This document shows, piece after piece, positions 2,657 to 40,649 of a stretch of 64,000 bases of DNA. Position 1 is the first letter of the stretch, and every line of letters starts with the position of its first letter. The DNA is taken from NCBI GenBank assembly GCA_025057975.1, contig JANWUV010000001.1, forward strand, positions 186,001 to 250,000. The letters run 5' to 3'. The stretch is from Chloracidobacterium sp. GTDB lineage: Bacteria > Acidobacteriota > Blastocatellia > Chloracidobacteriales > Chloracidobacteriaceae. The position numbers were made by a program, and so were the translations under genes. The notes under the pieces were generated by a model that saw nothing but the letters and a program-made list of their open reading frames with translations, was not told the origin of the DNA and ran no database searches.

Positions 2657-4708
2657 CTACGGGGCGTCAGGTTTGAGATAGGCGGCGAACCACTCGTGAA
2701 CGGTTTTGTACCAGAGTTCGCTGTTCTGTGGCTTCAAAATCCAGTGGCCCTCGTCTGGGAAGTACAGCAGCCGCGACGGAACGCCGCGCCGCTGCAACGT
2801 CGTAAACAGTTGCAGCCCTTCGCCGACGGGTACGCGGTAGTCCAGTTCACCGTGAATAACCAGCGTCGGCGTGGTGAAGTTTTTGGCGAAGCGATGCGGC
2901 GACCATTTTTCGTACAGTTCGGGATGATCCCACGGATTGCCCTTAAACTCCCACTCAGTAAACCACAGTTCTTCGGTCGCACCATACATGCTGACGAGGT
3001 TATAGACGCCGGCGTGCGAGACGAACGCCTTGAATCGGTTGTCCGTGTTGTGACCGAGCATCCAGTTGACCATATAACCGCCATAGCTGCCGCCCGCCGC
3101 ACCGATGCGGTCAGCGTCCACAAAGCCCATGCCGACGACGTGCTCAACGCCCCGGAGCAGGTCGTCATAGACCTTGCCGCCCCAGTCGCCGCTGATTTCG
3201 TCGGTAAACCGCTGACCGTAACCCGTCGAGCCGCGTGGGTTGACCATAAGGACGACGTAGCCCGGGGCGGCGAACAGCTGCGCATTCCAGCGGAAGCTCC
3301 AGCCGTTCGACCACGCACCCTGCGGCCCACCGTGAATGAGCAAAATCATCGGGTACTTTTTACCTTCGACAAACTGGGGTGGCTTGACGATAAAGGCATG
3401 AACGCGCGCGTTGTCCGCGCCGGTGAACCACGTCTCCTCGACCTTGCCGAAGCAAATCTCAGAGAGAAAGGTGTCATTGACGCGCGTCAGCTGCTTTGGC
3501 TCACCGCCGGCGGTCGCCACGGCGAAGACTTCATTTGGGCGCATCAGCGTGGACTGTGTGAAGTAAAGCGTCTTGCCATCCGGCGCAACTGAGAGGTTGC
3601 CGTTCTGTCCCTGCGCCACCAGCGGGCGGGCGTCGTCGCCGTCCAGCGTCAGGGTGAAGATGGGGACCTGTCCGCGATGGTCGCCGGTGAGAAAAAGCTT
3701 GCGGCCGTCCGGGGACCAGACGAGTTCATCAAAGGAGATATCCACCTTCTCGCTCAGACGGCGTAGCTTGCCGGTAGCGCGTTCGTAAAGGATGACCTGC
3801 TTTTTGTCCGACTCAAACCCAGCCCGATCCTGCGACAGCCACGCAATGTAGCGGCCGTCCGGCGAGTAGCGCGGGTGAGTGTCCGAACCAGGGCTTGTGG
3901 AAATGCGCCGGACTTCACCGCCCGCAAGCGACACGATGAAGATGTCATTGTTGGTGCTCAGGGCTTCTTCGCGGTCGGTGTTGCGCGCGAAGGCGAGTTC
4001 CGCGCCGTCCGGCGAAACGTCATAGTCGCGTCCACCGAGACTGAACGGCGGCGCGTCATAGTCGCCCGGCGTCAGATCGCGAGCCGGCCCACCCTCGACG
4101 GGAACGACGAAAATATGCGTCCGGCGACCTTCTTTGAAGCGATCCCAGTGCCGATACAGCAACCGGTCGGCGATCTTGGCTTTGACCGGGCTGGCCTCGG
4201 CGGCGGCGTACTTGCGCCGGTTGCAGTCTTCGTCCGGGCATTCGGGGTACACTTCGGCAACAAAGACCAGCCGCCGCCCGTCAGCCGCCCAGAGGACGCC
4301 TGAAACGCTGGTGTAGAAGTCTGTAATCTTGCGCGGCTCGCCGCCGTCGAGGCCAATCACCCAGATTTGCGCTTTGCCGTCGCGGTTGGAAACAAACGCG
4401 ACGCGCTTGCTATCGGGCGACCAGCACGGGTCGGTCGCCGAGTGCTTCCCGGATGTCAGTTGGCGGGCCTCACCGCCGCCGGTCGGTAGAACCCAAATGT
4501 CGTACTGGACGCGGTTGGCGGCCTTGTCTGTTACGCCTTGGACGTAGGCGATGTGGCGGCCGTCAGGCGACACGACGGCGGCGATGATGCGCCGAAACTT
4601 CATCTGATCATCGAACGTCATTGGGCGCAGCGCGGCAAGGGCGGCGCTTGACATAAGAAACGCCCAGAGCAAGCAGAAGACAAAGCAGTGCGGCTTGAGA
4701 TGTGGCAT
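2657..4708 (-). CDS. Secreted S9-family prolyl oligopeptidase / acylaminoacyl peptidase
   Basis: A 683-aa serine peptidase. An N-terminal signal peptide (about residues 1-27, hydrophobic core CFVFCLLWAFLMSSAALA) directs export to the periplasm. Residues 30-410 form a beta-propeller built of PD40-type blades (WSPDSKRVAFVSNRDG, YSPDGRYIAWLS, WSPDGRKLFLTGDHRG). The alpha/beta hydrolase domain carries GGSYGGY (Ser541), HGELD (Asp623) and EGHW (His655), a complete triad. The ATG at 4708 was chosen over an upstream TTG because it begins the signal peptide directly. The propeller normally limits access to short peptides. The gene starts a three-gene leftward unit and is divergent from the PfkB-type kinase. 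Confidence 0.92.
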   Translation of the reverse strand: MPHLKPHCFVFCLLWAFLMSSAALAALRPMTFDDQMKFRRIIAAVVSPDGRHIAYVQGVTDKAANRVQYDIWVLPTGGGEARQLTSGKHSATDPCWSPDSKRVAFVSNRDGKAQIWVIGLDGGEPRKITDFYTSVSGVLWAADGRRLVFVAEVYPECPDEDCNRRKYAAAEASPVKAKIADRLLYRHWDRFKEGRRTHIFVVPVEGGPARDLTPGDYDAPPFSLGGRDYDVSPDGAELAFARNTDREEALSTNNDIFIVSLAGGEVRRISTSPGSDTHPRYSPDGRYIAWLSQDRAGFESDKKQVILYERATGKLRRLSEKVDISFDELVWSPDGRKLFLTGDHRGQVPIFTLTLDGDDARPLVAQGQNGNLSVAPDGKTLYFTQSTLMRPNEVFAVATAGGEPKQLTRVNDTFLSEICFGKVEETWFTGADNARVHAFIVKPPQFVEGKKYPMILLIHGGPQGAWSNGWSFRWNAQLFAAPGYVVLMVNPRGSTGYGQRFTDEISGDWGGKVYDDLLRGVEHVVGMGFVDADRIGAAGGSYGGYMVNWMLGHNTDNRFKAFVSHAGVYNLVSMYGATEELWFTEWEFKGNPWDHPELYEKWSPHRFAKNFTTPTLVIHGELDYRVPVGEGLQLFTTLQRRGVPSRLLYFPDEGHWILKPQNSELWYKTVHEWFAAYLKPDAP

Positions 4709-10000: not shown

Positions 10001-10110
10001 CGTTGCGTGTGGACGCGGCGTACCTGCTTGATCCGCCGTTTTATGTGGCGACGCCCAACCGCCGACTCACCAACCTCCAGGTTCACATCACCTTTGGGCA
10101 GGCATTTTGA
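7066..10110 (+). CDS. Omp85/BamA-family outer membrane protein with about seven POTRA repeats
   Basis: A 1014-aa protein expected to insert beta-barrel proteins into the outer membrane. A hydrophobic segment at about residues 56-80 (VIWLALTLSFILMSAGMAAQA) is the signal peptide. The long region before it makes the start uncertain, and ATG 7141 is an alternative. Seven POTRA-like units can be counted from strand/turn patterns such as VADVTFDGDILFPAEEL, VQEVRIVGTDALRY, VVAVRFTGNQLLDTERL and INRVIIGTRGRTSEQTL. The C-terminal barrel starts at about residue 670 and carries the family motif GGPTTLRGLGFEQ, ending with the final strand LQVHITFGQAF. E. coli BamA has five POTRAs and TamA has three. Its 3' end overlaps the convergent thioesterase gene by 28 bp. 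Confidence 0.9.
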   Translation: MTRLPGWRGGRRWETGGDSENNSCPMSASGRKTTTQWPPTAFPKLPRRTQQPTKWSIPVIWLALTLSFILMSAGMAAQAQNILPAVQEAGALAVTQPPIGRLDGRTITRLDIEVKGGLPSEPSLGEAIGLQVGESLTAARLRAALVRLHRSEQVADAEVWTAADGAEGVQVRFVITRQLRVADVTFDGDILFPAEELRTRLAALERGNRITARALAEGEENLRLFYRERGYFQATVAARVSAPNDAARARVTFVVRPGPQAIIGDWWIDGDLKIPRADFDAKIIRHPVGTPYAIDFIQSDLQRIRALHLARGYLDPRISEPRVAFDPTTNRVAVSVSINSGPLVTVNITGFAFRREEQRQLLPILRDGGLDDLTLEEGARRLLVALQQRGYFFAEVDWSRQRLVGEERVVVTYTIEPYRRYRVQEVRIVGTDALRYRDVAGDFKTRPASLIPPSRGLVTEDTLARDAEVILRDLRNAGYLQAQVTERRIGVGLNDQSLTVLFQVEPGPRAQVVAVRFTGNQLLDTERLSRVLALSPGDFVTQEQVRADLERLKALYLSEGFAEARVRQELEEVNGDPARVYVVYEIEEGRRFTINRVIIGTRGRTSEQTLRRFLGVRPGERLRRDRLTQAEQALYATGAFRQVLIQTPYVRAAGPTEALADVTLDVIESKPYTLAYGFGYQTNDGPRGSFELSNANMFGRLEVGSVIVRLSRREQLAQVSYQFPRFNLPRVTTLTDGVTAPILISGLFQRQARVSFTTQRLAALVQSELRFGAQSALIFRYRLQNVRVLDLRVSNPPLQRLDVPLNLGTLSATYVRDTRDVPLDATRGGFISADLTLATPYIGGSERFVRFLGQFQGYRRAAERSPVVLAGRLQVGLAQPYGESRTLPISERFFSGGPTTLRGLGFEQAGPRDPVTDAPIGGNALVAATGEVRFPVLQNVEGAVFYDVGNVFARIADINFGCMTNSLGGGFRLKTPLGPLRVDAAYLLDPPFYVATPNRRLTNLQVHITFGQAF

Positions 10111-10574
10111 AGCGGCGCTTTATCGGCGTGTGGAGCGTGCAACAGCGCGTCGTAGATGTTCGACGGCAGGCGGATGACCCGTCCGTGTGCGTCAGTCGGG
10201 AGATGCAGGGTGTCGCCTGTCGCCAGCAGCGTCTCATCATCCTCGCGGTGGACGGTATAGGCAAAGCCAACCTGCCGTGAACGCAGCGTCGTCAGGCGCG
10301 TCTCAATGCGCAGCGCGTCGTCGTATCGTGCGGCGGCGTGATACCGAACGCGCGCTTCAGCGACCACGAGCCGGACGCCCGCCGCCTCCATATCGCGGTA
10401 GGTGAACCCGCAGGCGCGGCAGTAGTCCGTTCGCCCGACCTCCATCCAGACCAGATAGTTGGCATGGTAGGCGACGCCCATTTGGTCGGTTTCGGCGTAG
10501 CGCACCCGCAGGCGCGAAATGACAGCCGGCATTTCAATCAGCGAGCGGTCGGAAGATATCGGACGTTTACCCAT
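10083..10574 (-). CDS. Hotdog-fold acyl-CoA thioesterase (YbgC/4HBT family)
   Basis: A 163-aa cytoplasmic protein of the 4-hydroxybenzoyl-CoA thioesterase group, which hydrolyses acyl-CoA or acyl-ACP thioesters. The signature YAETDQMGVAYHANYLVWME contains the catalytic Asp of the ETDQMG motif. A matching second half (RYHAAARYDDALRIETRL) completes one hotdog unit, and such enzymes work as dimers or tetramers. It starts 12 nt after the stop of the radical SAM gene and is the last gene of the atpC / Lgt-like / radical SAM unit. That position suggests it releases or trims an acyl chain connected with that enzyme, but this is inference. Substrate length cannot be read. Confidence 0.87.
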   Translation of the reverse strand: MGKRPISSDRSLIEMPAVISRLRVRYAETDQMGVAYHANYLVWMEVGRTDYCRACGFTYRDMEAAGVRLVVAEARVRYHAAARYDDALRIETRLTTLRSRQVGFAYTVHREDDETLLATGDTLHLPTDAHGRVIRLPSNIYDALLHAPHADKAPLQNACPKVM

Positions 10575-10586
10575 GGACGTGCATCA

Positions 10587-12008
10587 TCATCCGCCGGCCG
10601 GCACCGCGGCCGGTTGTTGACGCAGCACATTGAGCTGCGCTTCGCGTCCGTCGCGGTAAAACAGGTTGAAGGTGTCAAACGGGATGAGGCGCCCGTCGGG
10701 ATGGACAATATGCACGCATGACCGCTTGACCGAGCGAATGTCAAGGCTGTGGGCGTCCATAAACTGCACGATCAAAATCCGAAAGACATTTTCATAAGTG
10801 AACTGCTCCGGCACGCTCACGAGCGGCAGGCAACACAAAAGCTGCTTGAGCGAAACCGCCTGCATTGCTGGCGAGTGTCCGGTTGAAAACGTCTTGAAAA
10901 TCTGCTCGCGCAACGCCGGGCTTTGCTCGTAAATGATCGTGCTGCCCCCGCTGTTGAGCAGGAACTCCGGGTCAATCAGGCCCGTCAGCGGGATGACCTC
11001 GCCGCCCAGCCTCAGCGCGTAAGCCATCGCTAGACAGTCGGGATGACACGGCACGGGGAGTATGTCCTGCGGCTTGAGCCACGGCGTCTGGCGGAGGATT
11101 GCCTGCCGAACTTCACTGAGCGTCAGGCGGTCGCGCGCCGGATCGAAACGCTCCGTGCGGCCGGCGACCTGTACCGGCTGGAACGTCACGCCCCGGACGC
11201 ACGAATGCTGAAGCGCGAACGCGATGATGTCGCCGATTTCATCGTCGTTGACACCCTTCTTGAGCGTGACGACCAGCGTCGTCGAAACCTTCAGGCGGTC
11301 GAGGCGTTCGAGCGCCCGCTCGCGTACCGTACGCAAATCCACGCCGCGCAAGTCGCGCAGGGCGTCCGCCCGCAGCGAGTCGAACTGCAAATAGATTTCA
11401 AAGCCCGGCATGTAACTCGCCAGCCGCTCGGCGAAGGCTTCATCCTGCGCGATGCGCAGCCCGTTGGTGTTGACCATCAGATGCTTGATGGGACGGCGTC
11501 GCGCGGCGTCAAGAATTTCAAAGAACTGCGGATGAAGCGTCGGCTCGCCGCCGCTGATTTGCACGATGTCGGGTTCGCCCTCGTTCCGGACGACGCAATC
11601 CAGCATGAACTCAACCTGCTCCAGCGAGCGGTGCGTCGGTCGGTGCGGTCCCGACTCGGCGTAGCAAATCGGGCAGGTCAGGTTGCAGTGGTCGGTGACT
11701 TCCACGATGGTCAGACAGCCGTGCTGCTCGTGATCGGGACAGATGCCGCAGTCATAGGGGCAGCCATACTGGATCGGCGTGTTGAATTGCCTGACGAGTT
11801 GGCCGGGTTTGAGAAAAGCGCGCTGCTGTTTATAAAACGCCGCGTCGGTCGAGATCAGCACCCGCTCGCGTCCGTGTACGGGGCAAAACTTGTGCATGAA
11901 CACCCGGTCACCCTCGATGACGATTTTGGCCTCGACCTTGCGGTGGCAAGTCGCGCAAATCGCATTAGTGAGTTCGTAAAACACGTACGGACGGTCAGCC
12001 ATGCGCAC
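10587..12008 (-). CDS. Radical SAM enzyme of the MJ0619 / tetraether-synthase-like family
   Basis: A 473-aa iron-sulfur enzyme. The N-terminus has a rubredoxin-like set of ligands (Cys18, Cys21, Cys42, His45 in CATC and FCPVHG). It is followed by an auxiliary-cluster segment (Cys83, Cys87, Cys90, Cys98 in GCPYDCGICPDH) and the radical SAM motif CNLTCPIC (Cys108, 112, 115). GGEPTLHP and the LMVNTNG strand belong to the SAM-binding barrel. This layout is that of COG1964, first annotated as a pterin methyltransferase and later shown in Methanocaldococcus (MJ0619, Tes) to join lipid tails. Near the C-terminus IPFDTFN stands where the second family member here has SFCAYN, so one Cys is lost. It overlaps the Lgt-like gene by 14 nt. 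The substrate is not proven. Confidence 0.85.
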   Translation of the reverse strand: MRMADRPYVFYELTNAICATCHRKVEAKIVIEGDRVFMHKFCPVHGRERVLISTDAAFYKQQRAFLKPGQLVRQFNTPIQYGCPYDCGICPDHEQHGCLTIVEVTDHCNLTCPICYAESGPHRPTHRSLEQVEFMLDCVVRNEGEPDIVQISGGEPTLHPQFFEILDAARRRPIKHLMVNTNGLRIAQDEAFAERLASYMPGFEIYLQFDSLRADALRDLRGVDLRTVRERALERLDRLKVSTTLVVTLKKGVNDDEIGDIIAFALQHSCVRGVTFQPVQVAGRTERFDPARDRLTLSEVRQAILRQTPWLKPQDILPVPCHPDCLAMAYALRLGGEVIPLTGLIDPEFLLNSGGSTIIYEQSPALREQIFKTFSTGHSPAMQAVSLKQLLCCLPLVSVPEQFTYENVFRILIVQFMDAHSLDIRSVKRSCVHIVHPDGRLIPFDTFNLFYRDGREAQLNVLRQQPAAVPAGG

Positions 12009-12789
12009 GCTCTCCTTCGGCTGTCGGAAGTAGCGCCACTAAACCATGCGGCCGACGCCTAAGCCGCCACAGGGTGTAGCCGGCTGCGCCCATCCCCAGC
12101 AGCGCCGCCGTTTGAATCGCGGTGAGTCCCCACGGATACACGAACGGGCGCGGCTTGATGAACTCCACCGTGAAGCGAAACGCTAGATACGCGAGCAGAA
12201 AGCGGCGGAACAGCGCGCCCGGCGGGTCCTCTGCAGAAGCCGTCCGGCGCAGCGTCACGCCGAGCGCCGTGAGATAGGCGATTTCGTACAACTGTGTCGG
12301 ATGGCGGCGCAGGCCGTCGCCGAAGTCCACGCCCCACGGAAGTCCTGTGAGAGCGCCGCATGTGCCGTCGGTCAGCCCGGTGAGAAAACACCCGACGCGA
12401 CCAATCGCTATCCCGACCAGCAGCGGAACCACGTAAGCGTCGCCGGTCGCCTGTCGGACGCCCGCTAGTCGCTTGGCGGCCTCGACGCCGGCCCAGCCGC
12501 CCAACAGCCCTCCGACAATGGACTTACCTTCGAGCCAAATGAGCGGGTTGGCGCGATAGCGCCAGTAGAGCGTCGGCGCTTCCAGCCATGCAAGCAGCTT
12601 GGAGCCAAGCCATGCGCCAAAGAGGCACCCGACCAGCGTCCAGACGGTTTGCTCAACGGTGAGTCCGCTCGGTTGACGCCGCCGCGCCCGGACATACAGT
12701 TGAAATCCGACCGTGTAGGCCAAGACCTCGCAGACAAGATGAATTGGGACGACCACCCCCGGCAACCGGATGTCATACGGAAAGTTCAT
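11995..12789 (-). CDS. Lgt-like (prolipoprotein diacylglyceryl transferase fold) membrane protein
   Basis: A 264-aa polytopic inner membrane protein. The Lgt family moves a diacylglyceryl group from phosphatidylglycerol to a prolipoprotein cysteine. Family landmarks are GKSIVGGLLGG (residues 88-98), GRVGCFLTG (130-138) and RRHPTQLYE (161-169). The canonical catalytic His in the HGGLIG segment is Val here, and the Asn/Glu of GNFINGE are Cys and Leu. It is therefore a paralogue whose transferase activity is doubtful. The ATG at 12789 gives a normal N-terminus; longer versions would run back into atpC. It lies 31 nt after atpC and overlaps the radical SAM start by 14 nt, so coupling with that enzyme is likely. 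Confidence 0.82.
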   Translation of the reverse strand: MNFPYDIRLPGVVVPIHLVCEVLAYTVGFQLYVRARRRQPSGLTVEQTVWTLVGCLFGAWLGSKLLAWLEAPTLYWRYRANPLIWLEGKSIVGGLLGGWAGVEAAKRLAGVRQATGDAYVVPLLVGIAIGRVGCFLTGLTDGTCGALTGLPWGVDFGDGLRRHPTQLYEIAYLTALGVTLRRTASAEDPPGALFRRFLLAYLAFRFTVEFIKPRPFVYPWGLTAIQTAALLGMGAAGYTLWRLRRRPHGLVALLPTAEGERAHG

Positions 12790-12820: not shown

Positions 12821-13240
12821 TCAGCGTGACTGGTAACGTTCGGCGGTTTTGACCCGTACCAGCGCGGCTTCAACTTCAGCGCGCAGGCGTGAGAGGTCGT
12901 CATCTGGGCGTTCCGATTCAGCTTGCTTGAGGGCCAGCTCGGCTTCACGCAGTCGCGTTCGCGCCTCCTCGATGTCAATGTCTTCAGCGAGTTCGGCGCG
13001 TTCGGTCAGCACCGTCACGCGGTCGCCAAGCACCTCCACAAAGCCTTGGGAGACAAACGCTAGTGTTTCTTTGCCGCCCTGCCGGTAGGTCAACAGCCCG
13101 GCGACGCTCAGTTGCGACATCAGCGCGGCATGGCCGGGTAGAACGCCGATTTCCCCATCCAGCGCCGGTAAAACAACTTCATCCACCGTCTGGGACAGTA
13201 GCGCCCGTTCGGGCGTCACGATGTCGAGTGTAAGAGGCAT
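12821..13240 (-). CDS. atpC: F1Fo ATP synthase epsilon subunit
   Basis: A 139-aa subunit of the F1 central stalk that couples and inhibits ATP hydrolysis. The N-terminal beta-sandwich reads LTLDIVTPERALLSQTVDEV, with EIGVLPGHAALMSQL and the LAFVSQGFVEVLGDRVTVL strand. A two-helix C-terminal domain rich in Arg, Glu and Ala follows. The length is normal for the family. The ATG at 13240 was chosen because the family begins at this point; upstream in-frame residues have no homologous character. No other atp gene is nearby, although atpC usually follows atpD. The gene heads the unit that continues with the Lgt-like and radical SAM genes. Confidence 0.92.
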   Translation of the reverse strand: MPLTLDIVTPERALLSQTVDEVVLPALDGEIGVLPGHAALMSQLSVAGLLTYRQGGKETLAFVSQGFVEVLGDRVTVLTERAELAEDIDIEEARTRLREAELALKQAESERPDDDLSRLRAEVEAALVRVKTAERYQSR

Positions 13241-13400
13241 ATCGTTTGAAAAACACCCTTTTTGTGCCAGAGTATATCCGGCGGCACGATACCAGCCTCC
13301 ACCCCTGCGTGGAAGCCGGCGGACGATAGTGAACCGATGTGCACGCTGGCGCAGCATAGCGCAACCTATCGCTTGAGTTTGGAACTAGAGGAGATAACTC

Positions 13401-38537: not shown

Positions 38538-40649
38538 CTATTTGCCCCCTGGCAAGCCGTTGCCGCCTGCCACGACAGCCGCCGCGCCTGCCGCCTGTGT
38601 CGCCGAAGCCGCCGCACCGTTGCCGTTGACGGTGGTGCGCTTGGCGCGTCCGATTTGAACGAGCTTCGTTTCGCCGTTCTTGATGCCGAGCACCTTCTCA
38701 CGGAAGAGCTTTTCCATCAGCCGCTTCTCTTCGGCGGCGGTCATGGGGCCGTCCGCGCCACGCGGACGCACGCGGGCTGCGTCTTCGGGGTTGACGTTCA
38801 GTGTGCATGGGCCGTCGGGCAGCTCGACGTTCCGCCCCTTAGCGTAGATTTCGTGCTTACCGTGTTCCTTGTACCACTTCGCTACGGTTGCATTCTTGTA
38901 CATGTCCTCAATGATGTTCCGCCAGCCGACACCGGTGTTATAGGCGCAGAAGGAGATTTCGCCCTCCTGCGTACCGTAGGGGATGATGCACATTTCCGTC
39001 CGGCGGAAGTCATAGTTGAAGAGGTCTTGGAACCACATGCCGGCGATGAAGAGGAAGTTCCAGCGGTCGCGGCGACGCTTTTCGATGTCCTCGCGCGTCC
39101 GGTTGCCCTTGACGCTGCCGTAGTCGCGGCCGGAGATGCCAAGCGACTTGTCAAACTTCTCCAACAGCGACTTGATCGTAAAATGCGTCGGTGCTTTGTA
39201 CGGGTCGTAGTTTCGTAGCAGCGACAGCGCCATCAGAAACGAAGAAAACACTCGTCCGCGGCCAGCGTCCGTAATCGCCTGCATGTCCTTGAGCAGACGC
39301 GGCACATTAATAAACGCCGGCACTGGCGCCATTTCCTTAGTTTCTTTGTCAATCATAAGGGCCGTCCCAACGCCGCAGTTGGGGTGGCAACCGCAGCTCA
39401 GATGACCGAACTGCGCTTCGGGACCGTGCGCCAGATCGGCGAAATCAGCAATGGTGCTCATCACGGAAATCGGAAACCAATCGCGGGTCGGTTCAGTGAC
39501 GCCGATCTGTTCTTTTACGTCGTACGCCAAGTGCGAGAGTGTATAACGCTGCCGCAGACGACGCTCATCGGTGATGTCTTCGTCGCGCCCAGTGAACGAC
39601 ACCGGCTGGAACGAGACGAAGGCGATCTTTTTGGGATTGTCCAAGGCGAAGCGAATGACCGGGCCTACTTGGTCGTTGGTGACGCCGTTGACAAGCGTCA
39701 CGACCAAGACGATTTCAACGCCCGCTTCGTGCAGGTTTTCAATCGCGCGGAGCTTCACGTCAAAGAGGTTGCCGACCTGCCGGTGGCTGTTGGCGTCATT
39801 GCCGATGCCGTCAAACTGAAGGTATGCGTAGCGTAGACCGGCCTCGGCCGCCTTGCGGCAAAACTCCTTGCTCTTGGCAAATTCAATGCCATTAGTAGCG
39901 CACTGGACGCTGTTGTAGCCTAGTTGCCGTGCGTAGCGAATCGCCTCCAAAAAGTGCGGCGACAGGGTGGGTTCGCCGCCGGAAAACTGCACTGACAGCT
40001 GCCGGCGGGGTTTGATGCTGATGGCGTTGTCGAGGATTTCCTTGATTTCCTCCAGCGACAGTTCATGGACGAATCCAACCTGATTGGCGTCCATGAAGCA
40101 CGGGTCGCACATCATGTTACAGCGGTTGGTGAGGTCTATCGTCAATACTGAGCCGCGACCGTGCTTGATGGAGCTTGTCCCGTGATTGTGCAGTTTGGCG
40201 TCATTGTGGGCGTCAATGTCCCGGCCGGGAAATTGCGCTTCGATATGAGCCAAAAAGTTGGCGTCAATTGCCATCAAATCTTCAAACCGACCGTGAACAG
40301 GACATTCCTTTTCCATCCAGACTTCATCGCGCCCGGTTTCGGGATTGTGACGTTTGACAATCTGCGCCTTGATCTCACCAACACGTTCATTGATGAGAAT
40401 TGTGTAATCCACTTCACCGCTCAGAATCTTCTCGCGCGCCTCTTTGACGCATTTGGGGCAAAGTGAATCCGTCGTGCGCGGCCAGCCAAGGGTGGGCTTG
40501 GTCTTTTGCCACGATTTGAGCAGGGGCTTATCCGACCACTTGGGCGTAAAGGAAGGGGCTGGCCGGTACTTGTTGACGGACTGAATGGCGACAAATAACC
40601 CTCCCGCGAGTTTCGACAACGCTTTTTCGGCGTGCTTGATGGGCTTCAT
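38538..40649 (-). CDS. Large radical SAM enzyme, MJ0619-related family
   Basis: A 703-aa protein. Residues 64-67 (CPKC) and the ECPVHG segment form a rubredoxin-like N-terminal site as in the smaller paralogue at 10587-12008. The radical SAM motif is CNMMCDPC, followed by FSGGEPTLSPHFLEA. The auxiliary-cluster stretch CPxDCGxC of the paralogue is missing. Further cysteines occur in HLSCGCHPNCGVG and in EISFCAYNTG near the C-terminus, possible ligands of another cluster. The last 60 residues are low-complexity Ala/Gly. It is a lone gene with its own terminator. Members of this group are known or suspected to act on lipid tails; the substrate here is unknown. Confidence 0.85.
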   Translation of the reverse strand: MKPIKHAEKALSKLAGGLFVAIQSVNKYRPAPSFTPKWSDKPLLKSWQKTKPTLGWPRTTDSLCPKCVKEAREKILSGEVDYTILINERVGEIKAQIVKRHNPETGRDEVWMEKECPVHGRFEDLMAIDANFLAHIEAQFPGRDIDAHNDAKLHNHGTSSIKHGRGSVLTIDLTNRCNMMCDPCFMDANQVGFVHELSLEEIKEILDNAISIKPRRQLSVQFSGGEPTLSPHFLEAIRYARQLGYNSVQCATNGIEFAKSKEFCRKAAEAGLRYAYLQFDGIGNDANSHRQVGNLFDVKLRAIENLHEAGVEIVLVVTLVNGVTNDQVGPVIRFALDNPKKIAFVSFQPVSFTGRDEDITDERRLRQRYTLSHLAYDVKEQIGVTEPTRDWFPISVMSTIADFADLAHGPEAQFGHLSCGCHPNCGVGTALMIDKETKEMAPVPAFINVPRLLKDMQAITDAGRGRVFSSFLMALSLLRNYDPYKAPTHFTIKSLLEKFDKSLGISGRDYGSVKGNRTREDIEKRRRDRWNFLFIAGMWFQDLFNYDFRRTEMCIIPYGTQEGEISFCAYNTGVGWRNIIEDMYKNATVAKWYKEHGKHEIYAKGRNVELPDGPCTLNVNPEDAARVRPRGADGPMTAAEEKRLMEKLFREKVLGIKNGETKLVQIGRAKRTTVNGNGAAASATQAAGAAAVVAGGNGLPGGK

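Follow-up and report, generated by a model that had tools for sequence, protein, structure and literature searches.

An Lgt-like membrane protein gene paired with a Tes-related radical SAM gene in Chloracidobacterium and other bacteria

The locus and its conserved gene pair

The locus examined here lies in a 64,000-nucleotide (nt) stretch of DNA, called the window throughout, which corresponds to positions 186001-250000 of contig C1 in a 3.5-Mb genome (G000) of the genus Chloracidobacterium. Three genes stand in a row on its minus strand: one for an Lgt-like integral membrane protein of 264 amino acids (aa; 11995..12789), assigned through PF01790, a structural model and alignments; one for a radical S-adenosylmethionine (SAM) enzyme of 473 aa (10587..12008), assigned through PF04055, PF23545, trees and a fold match and referred to below as A-type; and one for a YbgC/FadM hotdog thioesterase of 163 aa (10083..10574; TIGR00051, PF13279 and PF03061). 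With a GTG start at 12008, the radical SAM gene overlaps the Lgt-like gene by 14 nt, and the thioesterase gene lies 12 nt beyond it. The gene calls, coordinates, overlap and gap had been given in this form in an earlier reading of the DNA (the original prediction) and are correct for that start codon, and the families it assigned (Lgt fold, radical SAM, hotdog thioesterase) are borne out by the family scores. The radical SAM gene more probably starts at an in-frame ATG at 12002, because orthologs begin at the equivalent MADRPY, and the overlap with the Lgt-like gene would then be 8 nt (ATGGCTGA).

The association of the Lgt-like gene with the radical SAM gene goes far beyond chance. The two adjoin in all 13 of the 13 Acidobacteriota loci (in one of them with a single gene in between), and among 93 loci overall the Lgt-like gene is found beside or near the radical SAM gene in 78, mostly directly upstream and commonly overlapping it. 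One to three genes separate the partners in some of these 78 loci and the distance is greater in L104, while several of the remaining 15 loci, which have no Lgt-like neighbour, lie at contig ends. The pair spans Acidobacteriota, Bacillota, Bacteroidota, Proteobacteria, Cyanobacteria and others. When one genome per species was scanned, at least 80 best loci came up, all with an A-type radical SAM enzyme at 54-89% identity, and the matches listed include Paenibacillus, Brevibacillus, Fictibacillus, Neobacillus, Cylindrospermum, Chitinophaga, Hymenobacter, Flavobacterium, Maribacter, Chryseobacterium, Shewanella, Collimonas, Planctomycetes, Elusimicrobia and Melainabacteria; a search of a plasmid collection gave two matches only. 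The pairing is real and widely conserved. It is also apparently undescribed, as a literature search brought up no paper on this gene pair or on COG1964 by name. As a separate observation, a very divergent radical SAM protein of the same superfamily (L019/L060; G017:C141:102495-104920) is also encoded beside an Lgt-like gene, and the pairing therefore reaches beyond the A-type.

The thioesterase gene adjoins the pair in Chloracidobacterium alone, both among the 13 Acidobacteriota loci and among the 93 loci overall, and its product, at 99 bits against TIGR00051 (cut-off 68.7), is an ordinary YbgC/FadM member that is not a conserved part of the unit. The trio is rejected as a functional unit because this third neighbour is limited to the genus, so that of the single three-gene unit originally proposed only the Lgt-like/radical SAM pair stands. 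Upstream of the pair, at a distance of 31 nt from the Lgt-like gene, is an open reading frame (ORF; 13357-12821, minus strand) whose product we take to be an ATP synthase epsilon subunit. This epsilon-like ORF (12821-13357) is kept across the genus, and its co-transcription with the Lgt-like gene is possible.

The radical SAM enzyme, its relatives and the question of iso-diabolic acid

The A-type enzyme combines a radical SAM domain (PF04055) with the N-terminal zinc ribbon of the MJ0619 family (PF23545). A rubredoxin-like site (C18/C21/C42/H45) is followed by an N-terminal cluster segment of the form CPYDCGxC (C83/C87/C90/H93) and by the CxxxCxxC of the radical SAM cluster (C108/C112/C115); none of the cysteines of these three sites varies among the 93 homologs, and the histidines are kept in at least 97%. 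Of the four metal sites of the archaeal tetraether lipid synthase Tes, three are thus retained, with ligands that match those described for the rubredoxin Fe, [Fe4S4]N and [Fe4S4]RS of MJ0619 (PMC9433317), and the motifs that the original prediction had compared with MJ0619 (rubredoxin-like Cys/His site, CPxDCGxC, CxxxCxxC) are all present. An AlphaFold model with a predicted local distance difference test (pLDDT) score of 85 likewise supports the kinship with MJ0619 that had been claimed, and a shared fold: its best Foldseek match in the PDB is 7tol (E 1.6e-34, template modelling (TM) score 0.79/0.76), and 7tol/7tom stand far ahead of the peptide maturases SkfB (TM 0.37) and SuiB, which are the next, distant fold neighbours. 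Identity between the A-type and MJ0619 is about 28-33% over the alignment used.

Of the relocated C-terminal cysteines, C321 and C431 never vary among the homologs and C392-C393 hardly do (in the sequence from L157, C392-C393 are lost and LLTSGSRES is found). The position of MJ0619 Tyr459 is occupied by Ile434. In archaeal Tes, Met439 and Tyr459 are fully conserved, yet dispensable in vitro (PMC9433317); both residues were dropped as activity criteria, as their loss says little about an enzyme in which they are not needed.

The A-type protein reaches 279 bits with the Tes model NF045702 (cut-off 450) and 315 bits with the TrsS model NF045646 (cut-off 490), the latter being its best NCBIfam score and extending over the full length. 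A-type homologs from Paenibacillus and Arenibacter score 299 and 291 bits on the Tes model, and in both the TrsS score is higher as well. A first tree of radical SAM proteins with all rows contained long branches and was repeated without five of them; in the trimmed tree the A-type and the B-type paralog (G000:C7) form one group (100/100) that is separate from MJ0619, bacterial Tes, the C-type (f8) and the D-type. The approximately unbiased test rejects a placement of the A-type with Tes and the C-type that leaves out B and D (p = 1.7e-8). The comparison with Tes homologs that had been suggested as a check therefore places the A-type outside the Tes clade. Together with the 279 of 450 bits and the absence of the two [Fe4S4]C cysteines from their Tes positions, this leaves the predicted Tes-like function unsupported, and the A-type is rejected as a bacterial Tes on score, clade and ligand pattern.

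The B-type gene of the same genome (C7; L002 1423-2985) overlaps a methyltransferase gene (2982-3812) by 4 nt; with 147 bits against a cut-off of 155, the methyltransferase comes close to the DVU_1556 family, and the two genes resemble a TrsS/TrsM pair. The same B-type radical SAM/methyltransferase pair is carried by a plasmid of Mycolicibacterium vanbaalenii (L206).

An explanation that we consider unlikely, if still worth weighing, is that the A-type enzyme acts like TrsS on a small molecule or a redox or metal cofactor, with the Lgt-like protein as a membrane partner, and that its likeness to Tes reflects ancestry rather than substrate. The preference for the TrsS model over the Tes model in the window protein and in Paenibacillus and Arenibacter points this way, as do the grouping of the A-type with the B-type and away from Tes in the trimmed tree and the presence of DVU_1556-family methyltransferases (scoring just under the cut-off) beside the B-type gene on C7, on the Mycolicibacterium plasmid and in a Shewanella A-type branch. 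However, the 490-bit TrsS cut-off is missed, and at most A-type loci the partner is a membrane protein with a lipid-handling fold, joined by small membrane proteins, and not a methyltransferase. The literature search, moreover, gave no established substrate for TrsS.

The original prediction had gone in another direction and read the unit as making or modifying membrane-spanning lipids of the iso-diabolic acid type, with the thioesterase releasing acyl chains. The host genus, Chloracidobacterium, does contain iso-diabolic acid (PMC12816986), a property shared by subdivision-4 strains (PMC4644332). The Tes fold of the A-type enzyme fits this reading, and bacterial Tes homologs have been proposed as the makers of such lipids by Zeng et al. 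2022 (PMC8941075); Lloyd et al. 2022 noted Tes homologs in bacteria not known for biphytanyl chains (PMC9433317). Nevertheless, the A-type is patchy where cultured members of the class share the lipid: it occurs in 14 of 59 genomes of the class (with a fragment in one more genome of the genus, G002), in 18 of 297 genomes of the phylum and, by a hand count, in 4 of 30 genomes with a Tes-model match in the largest family sampled (f16). It is also common in phyla not known for iso-diabolic acid, as in Flavobacteriaceae, Chryseobacterium, Paenibacillus and Shewanella. Standard fatty-acid profiling would probably miss C28-C32 diacids, so that groups such as Flavobacteriaceae and Paenibacillus may contain joined lipids that went unnoticed. 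The suggested check of trio against lipid was made at the level of genome distributions; there the A-type is patchy, the trio is confined to the genus, and the lipid would appear to occur in relatives without the A-type gene. With the A-type outside the Tes clade and the thioesterase not conserved, we consider this role of the unit very improbable. The A-type unit is not the iso-diabolic acid enzyme across the phylum, and from the sequences its link to the lipid looks weak.

A Tes-clade paralog of near-universal type lies about 26 kb from the unit in the same window: the D-type radical SAM gene (38538-40649, minus strand; 703 aa), of a kind that nearly all genomes of the class possess. Of the three paralogs it has the highest Tes-model score, over its full length, and it keeps Tes-like C-terminal cysteines without having the N-terminal CPYDCGxC cluster cysteines. 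The D-type is thus a better candidate than the A-type for membrane-spanning lipid synthesis, and a candidate only, because those N-terminal cysteines are missing. Across the phylum, 34 of 297 Acidobacteriota genomes encode a protein above the curated Tes cut-off, a set open to comparison with producers of branched glycerol dialkyl glycerol tetraethers (brGDGTs).

The Lgt-like protein and the small cysteine-bearing membrane proteins

The membrane protein of the pair, a paralog of prolipoprotein diacylglyceryl transferase (Lgt), is recognised by PF01790 (77.1 bits, cut-off 24.9) and reaches 33.5 bits with TIGR00544 (cut-off 118.9). Its model (pLDDT 93) has E. coli Lgt (5azb) as the sole PDB match under E 0.001 (Foldseek E 5.6e-8, TM 0.63; VIA Z 14.4, 238 residues aligned, 24% identity). 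In place of the HGGLIG motif of Lgt it has GKSIVGGLLGG, while R131 and R205 align to R143 and R239 of the E. coli enzyme and C134 stands at N146; among the residues invariant in 38 Lgt-like homologs are H17, E103, K106, D117, R131, C134, D158, R162 and R205. A canonical Lgt (at least 167 bits) accompanies the divergent copy in the relatives, with the exceptions of G000 and G008. The Lgt-like protein is a specialised, divergent second Lgt copy, because nearly all relatives also carry the canonical one, and from its model it can reasonably be inferred to bind a phosphatidylglycerol-like lipid. G000 itself, a 99.9%-complete assembly, yielded one PF01790 match only and no canonical Lgt; a role as the organism's sole Lgt was rejected in view of the canonical copy in other genomes of the genus, and an assembly gap is the likelier explanation.

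In many loci a small gene adjoins the radical SAM gene, its start overlapping the radical SAM stop by 4 nt in 18 cases; the encoded protein is 59-169 aa long and contains two or three hydrophobic stretches. In the cysteine-anchored set of these proteins, a K/R-rich stretch about 20-24 residues upstream is followed by an uncharged hydrophobic helix and then by letters resembling [LIV]-[GN]-x-x-C-[GFAST] near the C-terminus. A strict form of this lipobox-like cysteine motif was found on the same strand at 50 of 93 loci and at 0 of 93 in the antisense control. When no selection was made on the cysteine, 44 of 48 first ORFs with two transmembrane (TM) helices had it in the last helix, the four exceptions being L113 (cysteine just outside the interval used), L151 (in the first helix), L144 (Phe) and the planctomycete locus L132 (none). 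Other two-TM ORFs of the same loci have a cysteine in the last helix in 19 of 34 cases, a weaker contrast than that of the strict motif test, perhaps owing to many spurious ORFs in the background. One to three copies occur per locus, they diverge fast outside the cysteine motif, and none matched a Pfam or NCBIfam family at its cut-off. L144 encodes two such membrane proteins, one with Phe at the position of the conserved cysteine and the other with Cys. The small gene sits between the radical SAM and Lgt-like genes in Chryseobacterium and upstream in Collimonas (L145 3178-3423), where the motif is at the N-terminus like a lipoprotein signal; a relaxed version is encoded in a genome of the same family as Chloracidobacterium (G008; L049 4397-4771).

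Such proteins could themselves be the substrates, cross-linked or otherwise modified by the radical SAM enzyme at or near the cysteine while the Lgt-like protein lipidates or binds them. Their small size, their rapid divergence outside the motif, their copy number, their translational coupling to the enzymes and their lack of a Pfam or NCBIfam family at cut-off would all suit maturation of this kind, as would the signal-like position of the motif in Collimonas and the peptide maturases SkfB and SuiB as next, though distant, fold neighbours. But Chloracidobacterium and other lineages keep the pair although no small protein can be recognised there, a tandem copy in L144 has Phe for Cys, the L132 protein has no cysteine, and the radical SAM enzyme matches no peptide-maturase family above cut-off. 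We therefore think that protein maturation has perhaps one chance among several of being the function of the unit, rather less than the action on a small molecule or cofactor considered above.

A tentative function and the nearest known systems

Our preferred reading, which we put forward tentatively, is that the two proteins, a changed Lgt and a radical SAM enzyme related to Tes, act together at the membrane and modify either a glycerolipid or a small protein that bears a lipid. It takes the observed pairing, folds, conserved metal sites, separate clade and small cysteine proteins as its basis, whereas it is inferred that the substrate is a lipid, in which order the steps follow and what they yield. 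The window genes would then be the Chloracidobacterium copy of a bacterial unit that in other lineages usually includes one to three small membrane proteins with a lipobox-like cysteine. The Lgt-like protein would hold a glycerophospholipid at the membrane (phosphatidylglycerol in the case of Lgt) and present it, or might alternatively pass a diacylglyceryl group to the cysteine of a small protein. The radical SAM enzyme would generate a 5'-deoxyadenosyl radical that abstracts a hydrogen atom, either from an acyl chain or from the protein once it is lipidated; capture of the substrate radical would give a new C-C or C-S bond. In Chloracidobacterium the unit might act on free lipid or on an unrecognised acceptor, because no small protein was found there. 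A more specific scheme, in which the Lgt paralog lipidates the last-helix (or N-terminal) cysteine of the small proteins after which the radical SAM enzyme couples or changes the lipid tail or forms a further bond to the protein, with the Chloracidobacterium enzymes using another acceptor, seems to us quite improbable.

Several points weigh against the proposed modification of a lipid or lipidated protein, whose link to lipids comes from fold and gene context and is accordingly put forward with reserve. In the Lgt-like protein, V92 stands at the position of the HGG histidine (H103 in E. coli numbering, which we take to be a catalytic residue of Lgt together with R143 and R239); with this active-site histidine gone, diacylglyceryl transfer may have been lost. 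No small protein was detected in Chloracidobacterium, where profile A5 gave nothing convincing in G000, G001, G003-G007 and G009 and the strict motif gave none. Three loci (L157, L171 and L174, from Shewanella, Ectothiorhodospiraceae and a betaproteobacterium) have an A-type radical SAM gene without the Lgt-like gene; in its place are genes for DUF547 and a DVU_1556-type methyltransferase, a hint that the substrates of the enzyme are not lipids or are more varied. At the C-terminus, the SHQHC and PFC cysteines of MJ0619, which, going by the alignment, would be its [Fe4S4]C ligands, align to C325 (C/S/A) and D445, so that this site is rearranged in the A-type. A Tes-type radical-storing cluster may be absent or different in this enzyme, a change of mechanistic relevance because in Tes it is this cluster that holds the substrate radical (PMC9433317). 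Model confidence is low for residues 373-401, which include C392-C393, and the geometry of any cluster there is uncertain.

Bacterial relatives of Tes are now counted as possible evidence for membrane-spanning lipids, the basis of brGDGT palaeothermometry. A survey of the Black Sea used an e-value below 1e-30 and an identity of at least 30% as thresholds (PMC11868695), and some A-type proteins, in view of their identity to MJ0619, could pass such cut-offs despite their separate clade, different partner and rearranged cysteines. Setting the A-type apart and pointing to the D-type would make it easier to test which enzyme makes iso-diabolic acid in Acidobacteriota. If the unit does act on lipids or lipoproteins, then a gene set of this breadth among the phyla, combining a changed Lgt with small cysteine proteins, would represent new bacterial membrane biology.

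Of the systems already described, the membrane-spanning lipid synthase Mss of T. maritima has a proposed role in tail coupling and a Tes-like architecture (PMC13274423, PMC11604127). The A-type is unlikely to be a close relative of Mss, because the T. maritima control genome gave no match to the Tes model at 1e-40. The window thioesterase is a YbgC/FadM member over the TIGR00051 cut-off with nothing notable about it. TrsS (NF045646), a radical SAM (seleno)protein found with DVU_1556-type methyltransferases, gives the A-type its best full-length NCBIfam score, under the cut-off, and differs in its partners, the window locus having an Lgt-like neighbour and no methyltransferase. With Tes/GDGT-MAS (MJ0619, 7tol/7tom, NF045702) the enzyme shares the fold, the domain order, the rubredoxin-like site, the [Fe4S4] CPYDCGxC..H motif and CxxxCxxC, but it belongs to a separate clade, has gained C321 and C392-C393 and is constantly partnered by an Lgt-like gene. 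The Lgt-like protein in turn shares with Lgt (TIGR00544, 5azb) the fold, the arginines at the R143 and R239 positions and the RHPxQLYE motif, whereas it has Val for the HGG histidine, Cys at N146 and a radical SAM enzyme as its operon partner.

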